From an uncultured Synechococcaceae cyanobacterium (GTDB lineage Bacteria > Cyanobacteriota > Cyanobacteriia > PCC-6307 > Cyanobiaceae), in contig CAIVPT010000184.1 in the NCBI GenBank assembly GCA_903907855.1, positions 1 through 46,997 of the forward strand: 46,997 nt of DNA. Reading direction: 5' to 3'. The notes under the pieces were generated by a model, which saw only the letters and a list, made by a program, of their open reading frames with translations, did not search any database and was not told where the DNA came from. This document shows positions 41,085 to 46,997 of the stretch, in pieces. The position numbers and the translations under genes are program-made. Within the stretch, counting starts at the first letter, position 1, and each line of letters opens with the position of its first letter.

Positions 41085-42467
41085 ATGGAGTGGCCCATCG
41101 GTGCCAACACACCCGCCCAACGTGAGCTGTGGGAGCGGCTGGTGCAGTGGAGTCCCGATCCGGAGGGGGAGAGGGGGGGCTTCACGCGCAAGCTGGCGCG
41201 GGAGCAGGGCTGGTCGCTGCGCCGCGCCGAGCGGGTGCTGGAGGAGTACCGGCGCTTTCTGTTTCTGGCGGTGAGTGCCGGCCATGGGGTGTGCCCCTCG
41301 GAGGCGGTGGATCGGGCCTGGCACCAGCACCTGCTCGACACCCGCCCCTACTGGGAGGAGTTCTGCCCGCAGGTGCTGGGGGTGCCCCTGCACCACAGCC
41401 CATCGCGGGGCAGCCTCGCGGAACGGCAGCGGCTGGCGGACGGATACGCCCGGACCCTGGCGAGCTACCGGCGCTGCTTTGGTGGGGCACCGCCCGCCGA
41501 CCTCTGGCCGCATCCGGCGCAGCGATTCGCGGGAGCCCACCGGGGCTGGCGGCTGGAGAAGCCCAGGCGACTGGGCCCCCTGGGGGGCGTGGTGAGCCTG
41601 GGGGGCCTGGCGCTCCTGCTGGGGAGTTGCGGCCTGCCGCGGGGGGAATGGTCCCCCTTCCGCCTGACGGGGGCGGAGTTTCTGGTGCTTTACCTCGGCT
41701 TGATGGCGGCGGCGATGATGGTCGGCCGTGCCCTGGACCACTGGGCGGGGGCCGATCCGCAGCCGGGCCGGCCCCTGCCCCTCGCCGACTCCTTTACGTC
41801 TCGGGAGATGGCCTACCTGGTGGGAGGCGAGCGGCAGGTGGGCCTGACCACCCTGGTGGACCTGCGCGAGCGGGGCGCACTCGAGCGGCCCTGGGCGCTG
41901 GCGGACCCGATCGAGCGGGAGGTGGCCGTGGCGGCAACGGCGAGGCCATTGGGGCTGAGGGACTGGCCGGGGCAGGCCAGCGTCCAGGCACTGACGGATC
42001 TGAAGCAGCGGTTGACCCAGCTCGGCCTGCTGGTGGAGGAGCGGCGCCACCGCCGGGCCCGGGGCGCCGGGCTAGCGGTGGGACTGGCGGTTCTGGCGCT
42101 GGGGGTGCTGCGGCTGGCCCAGGGCTGGCTGGCCGGCCAACCGATCGGCTACCTGACCATGCTGTGCGTGCTCCAGGTGCTCCTGAGCCTGGAGATGGGG
42201 CAGAGCCCACCGCGATCCACCCGACGGGGAGAGGCGCTGGTGGCGAAGCAGCGGCGCGCGGTGCACGCCTGGCTCCCGGGAGAATCGCTGGATCTGCGCC
42301 TGATGGCCCTGGCCGTCCTCGGCGTGGCGGCCCTGCCGGCCGCGGAGGCCGCTGCCCTGGCACCCCTGGTGCCGGAGCTGGCCGCCGCTGCGAGCGATGG
42401 GGGCAGCGGGGATGGCGGCGGCAGCGGTTGTGGGGGCTGCGGGGGTTGCGGCGGTTGCGGGGGCTGA
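41085..42467 (+). CDS. TIGR04222-type membrane protein with Cys/Gly-rich tail
   Basis: The 460-residue protein has two parts. The N-terminal 150 residues contain AVDRAWHQHLLDTRPYWEEF and a PLHHSPS segment, as in glycine-rich-domain proteins. The C-terminal part carries membrane helices (GGVVSLGGLALLLGSCGLP, FLVLYLGLMAAAMMVGRAL, GAGLAVGLAVLALGVLRLA, IGYLTMLCVLQVLLSLEMG). It ends in a Gly/Cys repeat, SGCGGCGGCGGCGG. This matches my memory of TIGR04222 proteins, whose function is unknown. A GGAG at 41072 is well placed for the ATG at 41085. Confidence 0.75.
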   Translation: MEWPIGANTPAQRELWERLVQWSPDPEGERGGFTRKLAREQGWSLRRAERVLEEYRRFLFLAVSAGHGVCPSEAVDRAWHQHLLDTRPYWEEFCPQVLGVPLHHSPSRGSLAERQRLADGYARTLASYRRCFGGAPPADLWPHPAQRFAGAHRGWRLEKPRRLGPLGGVVSLGGLALLLGSCGLPRGEWSPFRLTGAEFLVLYLGLMAAAMMVGRALDHWAGADPQPGRPLPLADSFTSREMAYLVGGERQVGLTTLVDLRERGALERPWALADPIEREVAVAATARPLGLRDWPGQASVQALTDLKQRLTQLGLLVEERRHRRARGAGLAVGLAVLALGVLRLAQGWLAGQPIGYLTMLCVLQVLLSLEMGQSPPRSTRRGEALVAKQRRAVHAWLPGESLDLRLMALAVLGVAALPAAEAAALAPLVPELAAAASDGGSGDGGGSGCGGCGGCGGCGG

Positions 42468-42659: not shown

Positions 42660-43397
42660 TCACGTTGATTCGAAACGGCGAATCGCGGCGCGAAAGCCAA
42701 GGGAAATCGCACGGCGCAGGGCTTTTTGACGGTTATTCACCCCCAGTCTCTGCAGTAGGTTGACGCTATAGGTCTGGACGGTGCGCACCGATAAGCCCAG
42801 CCGCTCCGCCGTCTCCCTGTTGCTGAGGCCAAGTGCATACGCCTCCAGCAACTGCCGCTCCCGCAGGCTCAACTCAAGGGTGGCCACCTCACCCTCCACG
42901 GGGAGTTGCGACGAAACCGACGCTCCCCTCAGGAGGGAAGGACTGCAATAGCTTGTATTGGTGACCACAGCCATTGTCGCCAGACTTATCACATCCGGGC
43001 AGGCAAGTATATCTTGATCGGCCACAAGAACAGGAATTACCCGCTGCGTCAGCACGTCATCAAAATGGGAGACGAAAGCAATGATCCTGAGTTGGGGGTG
43101 GATTTTCTTTGCCTGCCGGGCAAGCTGGACCAACGACATATCCGGCAGATCATCCACTAGCGCCAGGATGGAAGGCCTCACGCGCGCAATCAGCTCTAGG
43201 GCCCCAGCGCCGGTCGTGGAGCCCCCCAAGCAATCCTTTCTGTTCATACCCATGGCGCGATACCAGTTCGCCAACTGAGTCTGCGTGCCAGCTGCGTAGA
43301 CAACGGTTGGCTCAAAACCGGAGGAGAGACAAGCCAAGAGGAAGCGTGACTGAAACCTCCCTGCCGCGGCCTCCATCTGATGGGGCGTGATGATCAT
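42660..43397 (-). CDS. LuxR-type transcriptional regulator with degenerate receiver-like domain
   Basis: This is a 245-residue DNA-binding protein. The C-terminal GerE/LuxR helix-turn-helix is LSLRERQLLEAYALGLSNRE then AERLGLSVRTVQTYSVNLLQ. The N-terminal 130 residues look like a response-regulator receiver (RPSILALVDDLPDMSLVQLA, RIIAFVSHFDD), but the acidic pocket near the N-terminus is not evident, so phosphorylation is doubtful. The DNA is less GC-rich than the surroundings. It follows the NTF2-like gene by 24 bases, so the two probably form an operon. Met 1 or Met 8 may be the start. Confidence 0.85.
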   Translation of the reverse strand: MIITPHQMEAAAGRFQSRFLLACLSSGFEPTVVYAAGTQTQLANWYRAMGMNRKDCLGGSTTGAGALELIARVRPSILALVDDLPDMSLVQLARQAKKIHPQLRIIAFVSHFDDVLTQRVIPVLVADQDILACPDVISLATMAVVTNTSYCSPSLLRGASVSSQLPVEGEVATLELSLRERQLLEAYALGLSNRETAERLGLSVRTVQTYSVNLLQRLGVNNRQKALRRAISLGFRAAIRRFEST

Positions 43398-43421: not shown

Positions 43422-43904
43422 TCACAACCCCAGATCCGAAAGCCCTGGGTGATCATCAGGGCGGCGGCCAAGGGGCCAGTGAAATTTGCGATCGCCCTCC
43501 TCGATCGGCAGATCATTGATGCTCGCGATACGACGCTTCATCAAGCCATGCTCATCAAATTCCCAGTTTTCATTGCCATAAGCACGGTGCCAATGGCCGG
43601 AATCGTCATGCCACTCATAGGCAAAACGTACGGCAATACGATTATCCTGACAAGCCCAGAGTTCCTTGATCAGCCGGTAGTCGAGCTCCCGCGCCCACTT
43701 GCGAACCAGGAACTGCTGGATCGCCTCGCGGCCCACCAGGAATTCGGCGCGGTTGCGCCAGACGCTATCCGGCGTGTAGGCCAGCGAAACGCGCTGCGGG
43801 TCACGGCCGTTCCAGGCGTCCTCCGCCAGGCGCACCTTCTGGGCAGCGGTTTCGCTGGTGAAGGGGGGAAACGGCGGACGGGAGGTCGGGTCGGAGGAGG
43901 TCAC
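43422..43904 (-). CDS. NTF2-like protein, DUF1348 family
   Basis: This 160-residue protein of the nuclear-transport-factor-2 fold matches DUF1348 from memory. Characteristic segments are [39 protein letters not shown], and [20 protein letters not shown]. Function in bacteria is unknown; the fold usually makes a small ligand or enzyme pocket. The start is GTG at 43904. It is upstream of the LuxR-type gene and diverges from bioF. Confidence 0.85.
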
Positions 43905-43992: not shown

Positions 43993-45195
43993 CTGAATCC
44001 CCCGTCCCCTTCGCCCTGGCGCACCCAGCTGGGCCAGGCCCTCGCGGCCGTTCCCGCCGAGCGGCGGCGTGCCCTGCGGCCCTACGCCCCGGCAGCGAGC
44101 GCCGAGGGGAGCCCCTTCCTGGAGGCCCTGGCGGCGCCGCAGACGCTGCTGGACCTGGCCAGCAACGACTACCTGGGACTGAGCCGCCACCCCGCCGTCC
44201 TCGCCGCGGCCGCGGCCGAGCTGGCCGTCAGCGGGCTGGGGGCGGGCGCCTCGCGGCTGGTCACCGGCACGCGGCCCGTGCACCTCGCCCTGGAGGCCGC
44301 CCTGGCCGCCTGGCTCGGCCGGGAGCGGGTGCTGCTGTTCCCCAGCGGCTTCCAGGCCAACCTCGCGGCGGTCAGTGCCCTGGCGGATCGCCACAGCCTG
44401 GTGCTGGCCGACCGGCTGATCCACCACTCCCTGCTGGCGGGCGTGCGCTCCAGCGGCGCTCGCCTGCGGCGCTTCGCCCACAACGACCTGGGCGATCTGG
44501 AGCAGCAACTGGTGGCCGCGCGACGGGATCGCCCCCACGGGCGGCTGCTGGTGCTGTGCGAAAGCCTTTACAGCATGGAGGGCACCAGCCCGCCGCTGGC
44601 CGAGCTGGCCGCGCTCTGCTCCCGCCACAACACCCCCCTGCTGGTGGACGAAGCCCATGCCCTCGGCGTGCTCGGACCCGGGGGCCGGGGCCTGGCCCAC
44701 GGCCTGCGGGAGGTGGCGCTGGTCTGCGGCACCTTCGGCAAGGCCTTCGGCAGCGGCGGCGCCTTCCTGGCGGCCGATGAACCGCTGGGGGAGTGGCTGT
44801 TGCAGAGCAGCGGCGCCTTCCGGTACACCACAGCCCTGGCACCGCCGTTGGCGGCTGGCGCGCTGGCGGCGCTGGAGCTACTGCAGGGGGAGCCGCAGGC
44901 CGGGGTGGAACTGTGCCAGCGGGCAGCTCGATGGCGCGAAGCCCTGGTGGCGGCCGGCTGGCCGCGGCCCGCGGGGGAGGGGCCGATCCTGCCGTTGCTG
45001 GTGGGGGACGACCGCAAGGCCCTGGCCATGCAACAGCGCCTCGAGGCGGAGGGGCTGCTCACGGTGGCGATCCGCCCACCGACGGTCCCGGAGGGAACGG
45101 CGCGGCTGCGGCTGGTGCTGCGGGCAGACCTACCCGCCGGCAGCCGGGATCGCTTGCTGGGGGCGCTGGGAGGGGAGGCTTGCTGGCCCCGGTAG
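43993..45195 (+). CDS. bioF: 8-amino-7-oxononanoate synthase, no canonical start codon
   Basis: BioF condenses pimeloyl-thioester with L-alanine in biotin synthesis, using PLP. Conserved segments are DLASNDYLGLSRHP near the N-terminus, GAGASRLVTGT, VDEAHALGVLGPGGRG, and CGTFGKAFGSGGAF with the PLP lysine. The conserved N-terminal region is in frame from about 44000, but no ATG, GTG or TTG occurs between the in-frame stop at 43912-43914 and the GTG at 44278. Starting at that GTG would cut off essential residues. I place the start at the CTG at 43993 (about 400 residues). A base error hiding the true start is also possible. Confidence 0.88.
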   Translation: MNPPSPSPWRTQLGQALAAVPAERRRALRPYAPAASAEGSPFLEALAAPQTLLDLASNDYLGLSRHPAVLAAAAAELAVSGLGAGASRLVTGTRPVHLALEAALAAWLGRERVLLFPSGFQANLAAVSALADRHSLVLADRLIHHSLLAGVRSSGARLRRFAHNDLGDLEQQLVAARRDRPHGRLLVLCESLYSMEGTSPPLAELAALCSRHNTPLLVDEAHALGVLGPGGRGLAHGLREVALVCGTFGKAFGSGGAFLAADEPLGEWLLQSSGAFRYTTALAPPLAAGALAALELLQGEPQAGVELCQRAARWREALVAAGWPRPAGEGPILPLLVGDDRKALAMQQRLEAEGLLTVAIRPPTVPEGTARLRLVLRADLPAGSRDRLLGALGGEACWPR

Positions 45196-45210: not shown

Positions 45211-46997
45211 TTACACCTCGATGAACAGGTTGGTGCGCCCGAAGGCCTCCTCCTCCGGGGTGAAGACGGGGGCCTGATCCACCAGCTCCGGATCAAAGCG
45301 ATAGGTGTCCTGCAGGAAACCACCCTCGATCACGGCCGCCTCTAAATCCTGGATGTGTTGGCGGGCTTGGCTGCAGGTTGGCTCAAGGCTGGAGGCATCG
45401 CCCTTCTCGAGCAACTGCTGGAGCTGGAGCCGCAGGGCCGAGAGGCGTGCCACCGGCTTGAGCAGGCCGTAGATCGCCACCAGGCGGCGCGTGGCAATGC
45501 TGATCTGCTGCAGGGCATGGGCCCGGGCCAATTCCGAATCGATGCTGGGCCAGTAGCGGGTGGTGTAGAAGGCCTTGTCATCTCGGTGGTACCACTCTTC
45601 GGAGCGAGCGATCGAGGAGGAAACAGTGTTGTGGAGCTTCCAGAGAAACAGGCGCAGCGAGGCCCCGTCTGTGACAGCTGCCAGCTTCTCATCGATGGAC
45701 ATCAAAAAGTTACTGGGGTCGGCGTCCTGGCCCAGCAGCAGATATTCCACCGGATACATTTCAACCTCCCGATTCTGCACCACATAGGCATTGAGGTGGT
45801 GGCGGCAATAGGGGCAGGGATACATGGTAGCAAAAAGCTTGAAGAAATCCTGGAAGAGATCCACCAGCACCGGCTGGTTCTCGGCGGGCTGGGTCGCGAC
45901 GATCTCGGCTGCGGTATGGAAGAAACGCCATACGGCGGGACCGATGTAATAAGGGAAGCTGATCCGCATCTGTGCATCCTGCACATCACGGCGGCCAAGG
46001 TAGACATCGATGAAAGCCACGTAATTCGAAAGGGCTCCGGACTCACGACCAAACTCCAAGCGCTCGCGGCGTTTCTGCACTCCATTTAGGTAGTGGCTGG
46101 TCAACCTCCAGGCCTGGGCAATACGCAACTTTTGCTCCGGCGTACAGGAAGAAAATCCTGCCGCCACATCCTCTCCATAGCGGGCGAACTCGCCAGCGGC
46201 ACTTGCTGTTGCAAACCACTGATCCAGGGCCGCTTCATCGGCAACCGTCTGACTGGGAATATCAGCTGCGGTGCTGACACTGAACGCAGCCAGGAGTTTC
46301 GGCATGAAGTCTTCATACCAGTAGGCGACAGGCAGCATCGCCCCATCCACGGTTTCGAGAGCGTGGGAGAGGATCACCCGATTCCACTTCTGCAGGTAGG
46401 CGGTCGGTTCGCCTGCAGCAGCGTTGGAAAGGGGGGTAAATGTCTGACGCAATTCCTGCTCCCGCAAGCGGTTGAGTTCGTGGGAGACCAGCACGCCTTC
46501 CACTACATCTGCAAGGATTAGCTTATGTTTTTGCATGGTCAGGGCAAAATTAACGCCTGCCACAAATTTCTCCCGGGCATTGCCGGATGCACTGCGGGCT
46601 GAGAGCATCGCTTGCTCTTCCGCGATCATCGCCGGGGTCTTGGCAATGGTCGACCAGTGATCGATGCGCTGCCGCAGCCGTTCCACCTCCTGGTTGATGG
46701 AGTCCACCACCGCATCCAGCAGCGGTTCGCAGGCCGACTCAACGATGCCAAGATTCTTGTAGAGGGCAATCGCAGCCGCGACAAACCGGGCGAAATCAGT
46801 GATGCGATAGGGCAGGTTGCGCACCTGCAGGTGGGTTTCGTGATTGGCAGAGAAGCTCTCTCGAAAGGATCGATAGGCCGCGCCTTGCAGCAAGCGAAAC
46901 AAACCGATTTGCATCTGCAGGCGTGACGTGCCACGTACTTTTTCGTCCTGCGGATGGAGAGCCAGAAGTGCTTTCAGGCGCTCCAGCTCAGGATTGG
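45211..46997 (-). CDS. Large protein with Erv1/ALR-like sulfhydryl oxidase domain, 5' partial
   Basis: The frame stays open to the right edge, so the gene is cut at its 5' end; at least 594 residues are visible. Counted from the Met at 46914, residues 323-440 resemble the flavin-linked Erv1/ALR thiol oxidase domain: GPAVWRFFHTAAE (W329, H333), then MYPCPYCRHHLNAYV (the redox CXXC at 367-370), then LFLWKLHNTVSSSI (H428, N429). About 55 residues separate CXXC from the HN motif, more than in human ALR. The other regions are helical and unfamiliar; no signal peptide or membrane helix is seen in the visible part. The base composition is less GC-rich than the window. A role in disulfide formation is inference. 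Confidence 0.7.
   Translation of the reverse strand, partial: NPELERLKALLALHPQDEKVRGTSRLQMQIGLFRLLQGAAYRSFRESFSANHETHLQVRNLPYRITDFARFVAAAIALYKNLGIVESACEPLLDAVVDSINQEVERLRQRIDHWSTIAKTPAMIAEEQAMLSARSASGNAREKFVAGVNFALTMQKHKLILADVVEGVLVSHELNRLREQELRQTFTPLSNAAAGEPTAYLQKWNRVILSHALETVDGAMLPVAYWYEDFMPKLLAAFSVSTAADIPSQTVADEAALDQWFATASAAGEFARYGEDVAAGFSSCTPEQKLRIAQAWRLTSHYLNGVQKRRERLEFGRESGALSNYVAFIDVYLGRRDVQDAQMRISFPYYIGPAVWRFFHTAAEIVATQPAENQPVLVDLFQDFFKLFATMYPCPYCRHHLNAYVVQNREVEMYPVEYLLLGQDADPSNFLMSIDEKLAAVTDGASLRLFLWKLHNTVSSSIARSEEWYHRDDKAFYTTRYWPSIDSELARAHALQQISIATRRLVAIYGLLKPVARLSALRLQLQQLLEKGDASSLEPTCSQARQHIQDLEAAVIEGGFLQDTYRFDPELVDQAPVFTPEEEAFGRTNLFIEV

Follow-up and report, generated by a model that had tools for sequence, protein, structure and literature searches.

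A calmodulin-like EF-hand module fused to a predicted Erv1/ALR-type sulfhydryl oxidase core in cyanobacteria and other bacteria

We found that the window, i.e., the whole 46,997-nucleotide stretch of DNA analyzed here, carries at one end the larger part of a 786-residue protein in which four EF-hands with ~45% identity to calmodulin precede a core of the Erv1/ALR type. We are highly confident of this architecture of a calmodulin-like module and an Erv core. By analogy with the Erv family, the core is likely to oxidize thiols, and we lean slightly toward calcium gating of that oxidase. Taken together, the evidence modestly favors an FAD-dependent sulfhydryl oxidase that is soluble and probably cytosolic and is under calcium control. 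The calmodulin-like front lay outside the view of the first reading of this DNA, and with it the find takes on a different meaning.

The original prediction placed an Erv1/ALR-type domain in a cyanobacterial protein of more than 590 residues, which agrees with the 594-aa ORF at 45211–46995 on the minus strand, whose 5′ end is open and runs off the window, which contains all three predicted motifs and which matches Pfam PF04777. The window is the entire contig C184 (1–46997) of a genome of 3.0 Mb that is split into 320 contigs, and 45211–46997 (minus strand, stop codon at 45211–45213) encodes the C-terminal 594 residues of the protein. The sequence beyond 46997, where the true start had been expected, was recovered from the same genome, in which one end of contig C136 encodes the N-terminal 192 residues; the start ATG (C136:25260), from which the 786 residues are counted, is our choice in a frame that stays open farther upstream. 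The ends of C184 and C136 share an exact overlap of 141 identical bases. Eukaryotic contamination and misassembly were ruled out, given that L023, a 99% identical relative, runs unbroken over the joint of the two contigs and that a peptide-pattern scan of genome_contigs revealed 57 related loci, some of them on complete chromosomes.

A comparison with the Erv1/Alr profile, which had been suggested as a check of the predicted domain, gave a significant match: Pfam Evr1_Alr (PF04777) aligned with residues 354–411 of the 594-aa ORF (45763–45936, minus strand) at E = 2.3e-11, with a score of 44.4 bits where the cut-off is 27.6. All six relatives scanned also scored above the cut-off (34.9–43.9 bits), and only two of these six proteins (L054 and L016) matched the latter half of the Pfam model. 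Among PDB sequences, the top phmmer match of the window protein was yeast Erv2 (E = 7e-4), and the 52-row family profile retrieved Erv1 proteins at 1.6e-5 to 3.6e-5. NCBIfam had no family for the window protein, and PHROGs had none for the core.

The W, H, CXXC and H-N motifs, which the first reading had recognized as standing in the Erv1/ALR order, were found in frame with their key residues invariant in all 52 aligned rows. In full-protein numbering, these are W548 and H552 of WRFFH (45916–45930), C586 and C589 of CPYC (45805–45816), and H647 and N648 of LWKLHN (HN at 45628–45633), all on the minus strand. We take W548, H552, H647 and N648 to be positions that contact the flavin in Erv enzymes, and C586/C589 is predicted to be a redox-active disulfide beside FAD. 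The CXXC is present in 52 of 52 aligned rows and in 71 of 71 rows of a cysteine comparison that was built from 79 loci minus nine fragments or duplicates, plus our own joined protein, and in which some near-duplicates are left. C586 and C589 are the sole invariant cysteines among these 71 rows, followed by C476 (60/71) and C281 (54/71), both of which are single. The 71-row comparison revealed no conserved shuttle disulfide, no conserved structural disulfide and no second conserved CXXC, and no conserved CXXC was found C-terminal to C586/C589. A shuttle disulfide that feeds the CXXC is common in the Erv/ALR family, albeit not universal.

The core, which is conserved in the family, comprises 574 residues (213–786; 45214–46935, minus strand) made up of a helical region, the Erv bundle and C-terminal helices, and in its alignment (A3, 52 rows) the mean column identity is 67%. 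The AlphaFold2 model of the core (pLDDT 76.9, pTM 0.82) places an Erv-type helical bundle at 45502–45960 (minus strand; model helices 333–348, 351–371, 375–386 and 424–445 of the core). Structure prediction had been proposed as a further check of the domain, and the predicted bundle does surround the CXXC in a QSOX-like manner, where it would presumably bind FAD. In VIA-align comparisons, for which Z-scores of helical bundles below about 13 can reflect a common arrangement, the top matches of the core spanned the HRR (pseudo-Erv) and Erv regions of human QSOX1 (3llk_B, Z 12.4, rmsd 4.5, 234 aligned of 243; 3lli, Z 12.3), followed by T. brucei QSOX (3qd9, Z 10.5), and below the QSOX rows the next unrelated row had a Z of 7.0 and mimivirus R596 had 6.7 over 108 residues. 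Foldseek by itself found nothing in PDB for the core at E < 1, and QSOX ranked first only in this second look with VIA. Given that the aligned range starts at core residue 1, the helical region ahead of the Erv bundle takes part in the likeness, and the model suggests that the core may adopt the pseudo-Erv/Erv arrangement of QSOX. Profile comparison of the pseudo-Erv half with the Erv half detected no sequence homology, the two short matches arising from a 5-residue overlap between the slices compared. What the original prediction, with its large, unrecognised helical flanks, missed is that the flank is QSOX-like in its predicted fold and that an EF-hand module lies ahead of it.

The marks of QSOX, which has been described in eukaryotes, are a Trx domain, the pseudo-Erv/Erv module and a C-terminal CXXC (PMC3616962). 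The protein found here carries a calmodulin-like module in front. It has no C-terminal CXXC and no thioredoxin domain, no thioredoxin family being seen in Pfam scans of six proteins that detected EF-hands and Evr1_Alr, and thus we do not class it as QSOX. With Erv1, Erv2 and human ALR it shares PF04777, the WxxxH, YPCxxC and HN motifs in order and a predicted bundle round the CXXC, but it differs from the Erv/ALR oxidases in its 574-residue core, in the lack of any other invariant cysteine and in the attached calmodulin module. Yeast Erv1 and Erv2 and human ALR are small proteins that form homodimers and contain both shuttle and structural disulfides.

The first 150 residues of the protein form the calmodulin-like module, which closely resembles animal calmodulin. 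A Pfam scan of L023 matched EF-hand_1 (PF00036) four times (E = 3.4e-29) and EF-hand_7 (PF13499) twice, in keeping with the two EF-hand pairs of calmodulin-like proteins, a feature that the 13-row clade described below lacks. NCBIfam searches of three relatives gave sub-cut-off matches in two, the best being the XopAW calcium-binding family on the EF-hand part of L028 (68.7 bits vs. 120). The full AlphaFold2 model (pLDDT 74.3, pTM 0.70) aligned with calmodulins at Z 11–12 and ~45% identity, with an rmsd that was often 12–15 Å over both lobes and ~2 Å per single lobe; since calmodulins filled the structural search of the full model, that search was uninformative on the core.

In a 53-row tree, rooted by midpoint only, 13 genomes of the window's family and a Gemmobacter plasmid row on a long branch were separated with support of 100/99 from a group of 39 rows, the window included, that come from Cyanobacteria, Nannocystaceae and Proteobacteria. 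Canonical EF loops were counted with a strict pattern of our own in the 52 rows of two tree groups. The 39-row group, which includes L023, has at least four such loops in 27 rows, three in 6, two in 3, one in 2 and none in 1, where the fifth match of L074 is spurious, one of those of L071 seems spurious and L061, the row with none, is cut at its N-terminus. At least three canonical loops are thus kept in 33 of these 39 rows. The 13-row clade (all from the window's own taxonomic family, among L007–L022) has zero or one EF loop in each row and has kept the core, and just one or two canonical loops are found in the five proteobacterial rows L058, L062, L067, L070 and L072. Because the rows of this eroded clade and these proteobacterial rows keep the core, Ca2+ control is not essential to core function everywhere, and the loss of EF loops with retention of the core is the chief argument against an obligatory control by calcium. 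All 39 rows of the EF-hand group carry C281, whereas all 13 rows of the eroded group have Ala at this position. Such joint loss of C281 and EF loops hints at a role of C281 in a calcium-linked function.

Hydropathy analysis of the 52 rows identified neither a signal peptide nor a membrane helix and no hydrophobic N-terminal stretch, the highest mean hydropathy over 19-residue windows being not above 1.56, and the protein is therefore probably cytosolic. VKOR, named in the original prediction as the main cyanobacterial route to disulfides, does coexist with the Erv gene in the window's genome. It scored over the cut-off in all nine cyanobacterial carriers, two of three Nannocystaceae, one of seven proteobacterial genomes and not in the one plasmid record, compared with 3 of 14 control genomes. 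Given that VKOR is kept alongside in the cyanobacterial carriers, the Erv protein would add to the usual disulfide system rather than replace it.

In the Erv family, electrons pass from the CXXC to FAD and on to O2, and it is this chemistry, together with the invariant residues, that makes thiol oxidation the most likely function of the core. EF-hand NADPH oxidases provide a comparable conversion of Ca2+ into superoxide. We tentatively propose a bolder reading, which we hold to be quite possible although somewhat short of probable: a cytosolic, calcium-switched bacterial thiol oxidase, in which a QSOX-type pseudo-dimeric Erv engine without thioredoxin is gated by an integral calmodulin and turns a Ca2+ signal into disulfides and H2O2. 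In the modestly favored reading given at the outset, the calmodulin-like module (residues about 12–150) would bind Ca2+ and would be joined by a Pro/Ala-rich linker to the core, in which, going by the predicted fold, a catalytically dead helical region would pair with the Erv bundle as a QSOX-like pseudo-dimer. C586/C589 would take two electrons from a dithiol and pass them by way of FAD to O2, with a disulfide and H2O2 as products. Since there is neither a thioredoxin domain nor a second conserved cysteine pair, direct access to the CXXC would be required, and the substrate or a separate thioredoxin-like protein would contact it; movement of the calmodulin module, driven by Ca2+, would open or close this access. 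A human QSOX1 HRR/Erv fragment without thioredoxin domains oxidized TCEP efficiently but did not oxidize small or protein thiols (PMC3401233), and by analogy an outside dithiol donor may therefore be expected here.

The same core could also operate without calcium gating, if the EF-hand module had a structural or docking role toward a target protein or the membrane and the Erv core were constantly active or otherwise controlled. The clade with zero or one canonical loop keeps the core, so that its task there would need no Ca2+, and the five proteobacterial rows with one or two loops point the same way; a purely structural role, however, would not require the retention of at least three canonical loops in 33 of 39 rows, and we regard an ungated oxidase as rather unlikely. 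A lower probability still is given to a redox sensor, whose FAD/CXXC core would report the thiol state or send electrons elsewhere than to O2, with no net supply of disulfides. That the CXXC alone is invariant among the cysteines, with no shuttle or structural disulfide conserved, would fit such a non-processive protein, as would a protein that is large, rare and without conserved partners found, but the W, H, CXXC and HN residues are all invariant, as an active enzyme would show.

An exported or periplasmic enzyme that forms disulfides and replaces or supplements VKOR/DsbB would rely on the same Erv chemistry, and known cyanobacterial disulfide formation is extracytoplasmic. Hydropathy speaks against it, having revealed neither a signal peptide nor a membrane helix in the 52 rows, as does the retention of VKOR in the window's genome and in 9 of 9 cyanobacterial carriers, and we consider an exported enzyme highly improbable.

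The gene is sparsely distributed. Within the window's own family 29 of 400 genomes carry it, and in the phylum 18 of 386 do, the window's genome included. Together with the 57 loci, the recurrence in the family far exceeds what chance would give. Three of these 18 carry only remnants (G558:C3:6052636-6053442, G522:C1:123041-123172 and G720:C202:42164-42235), which are broken or very short, with a stop codon within each match; all three belong to one genus (g79), pointing to gene loss there. In the class of L058, a Pelagibius MAG, 1 of 385 genomes has the gene, and in the phylum of Nannocystis 1 of 235, in both cases the centre genome alone. A PF04777 search of the phylum found matches in 11 of 292 genomes, one of them the G558 remnant, and none in 14 control genomes, with one sub-cut-off match in another scan. 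Given that all 11 matches lie inside this one gene, it is this gene that encodes the cyanobacterial Erv protein in the genomes sampled there. The presence of Erv1/Alr in cyanobacteria is already in print, PF04777 having been reported in Nostocales, Oscillatoriophycideae, some Alphaproteobacteria, Planctomycetes, Verrucomicrobia and Euryarchaeota (PMC10598087).

In the window, the oxidase gene is convergent with a neighbouring gene of the aminotransferase fold (44278–45195, plus strand; Pfam Aminotran_1_2), which is found in 41 of 41 genus genomes. The other flank of the oxidase gene, seen in C136 and L023, is an alpha/beta-hydrolase gene with a weak match to Pfam Abhydrolase_4. We assume the former to be BioF-like and the latter to be BioH-like. 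Loci were obtained from 30 of the 41 genus genomes, one of which is the window, and in all 29 relatives' loci compared the two flanking genes adjoin, their matched regions being 28 to 250 bases apart; of the other 11 genomes G315 alone was inspected, and it has the same insertion as the window. Among these 29 relatives, G348 carries an oxidase gene of its own at a different locus (78% identity). The adjacency of the flanking genes in these relatives supports acquisition, as the first reading had suggested in proposing transfer: the oxidase gene was inserted here in the lineage to which the window and G315 belong.

Base composition adds little to this case. The original prediction of a lower G+C content holds for the gene relative to the window (58.6% vs. 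69.2%), and its third-position GC is 0.71, compared with about 0.90 in two neighbours, but the contrast with neighbouring DNA is not general. Genes for a LuxR-type regulator (42660–43397, minus strand) and a DUF1348 protein (43422–43904, minus strand) have an equally low third-position GC (0.68 and 0.71, respectively). Since these two nearby genes are as low, the low GC is weak evidence for acquisition. Also in the window, a 460-aa ORF (41085–42467, plus strand) ends in a C-terminal run of Gly-Gly-Cys repeats.

In the window's genome, a gene for a 348-aa membrane protein (L137:3884-4930; C136:23883-24929), which by eye presumably resembles ligand-gated channels, sits between the hydrolase and oxidase genes. 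Counterparts at E up to 1e-10 were detected in 32 of the 41 genus genomes, that of the window among them. We rejected it as a conserved ion-channel partner, given that it has no Pfam match and that its nearest counterpart in G315, at 59% identity, is on another contig. ORF clustering around the loci, with frames that overlap the gene excluded, found no neighbour conserved across distant lineages; in this survey genes were called from ORFs and flanks were short at many loci. The most widespread clusters comprised 15 loci (a long frame found on either strand, at a median distance of 2.9 kb) and 9 loci (at a median of 4.8 kb), and others comprised 6–7. Among 22 chosen diverse loci the most widespread neighbour was an ABC-type frame, which was present in 5 and whose distance varied. 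The suggestion that the domain belongs to a separate thiol-oxidizing system thus gains no support from partner genes.

One viral protein resembles the core. Among viral structures (BFVD), the only match with E below 0.001 was A0A5K0UAY3 of Yasminevirus, a longer protein of 1140 aa named histidine kinase (Foldseek E 9.7e-19, TM-score 0.60, 20% identity), which also ranked first with the full model (E 4.2e-18). This structural match suggests that the oxidase family may reach eukaryotic hosts. A viral origin was rejected, as no relative was found in IMG/VR contigs with either the window protein or the 52-row profile, none in phage records and no PHROG family. Mobility on plasmids was likewise rejected, a relative at E up to 1e-5 occurring in 1 of 72,556 plasmid records. 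That sole plasmid relative, from Gemmobacter, has 46.6% identity and is annotated as 'ERV1/ALR-related protein'. It is the most divergent relative (L003, Gemmobacter aquarius, on a 284-kb plasmid) and lies among sugar-metabolism genes (glgX, AGE epimerase and nucleotidyltransferase).

A survey of bacterial fusions with calmodulin-like EF-hands lists NADPH oxidase, nitric oxide synthase, thioredoxin, cytochrome and heme oxygenase as partners (PMC7016017), and the protein described here is similar in that a calmodulin-like domain is joined to a redox enzyme in bacteria. It differs from those described there in its partner, as 'sulfhydryl' and 'Erv1' are absent from the main text of that survey. 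The survey also names a Tic110-like fusion, for which there was no counterpart here, as Pfam scans of the window (up to E = 1) and of relatives (up to 0.1) yielded no Tic110 family. In the open-licence PMC literature we found no report of a calmodulin-like sensor covalently linked to a disulfide-forming engine.

If the proposed assignment is true, this family would provide a bacterial relative of the pseudo-Erv/Erv module hitherto described in eukaryotic QSOX, here without thioredoxin, and a thiol oxidase that probably acts in the reducing cytosol beside the resident VKOR system. The fusion of a calmodulin-like sensor with a predicted sulfhydryl oxidase suggests that some bacteria may carry out calcium-switched thiol oxidation, and, if the enzyme is active, bacterial calcium signalling would become testable through one enzyme, with O2 use, H2O2 and disulfides as the readout.
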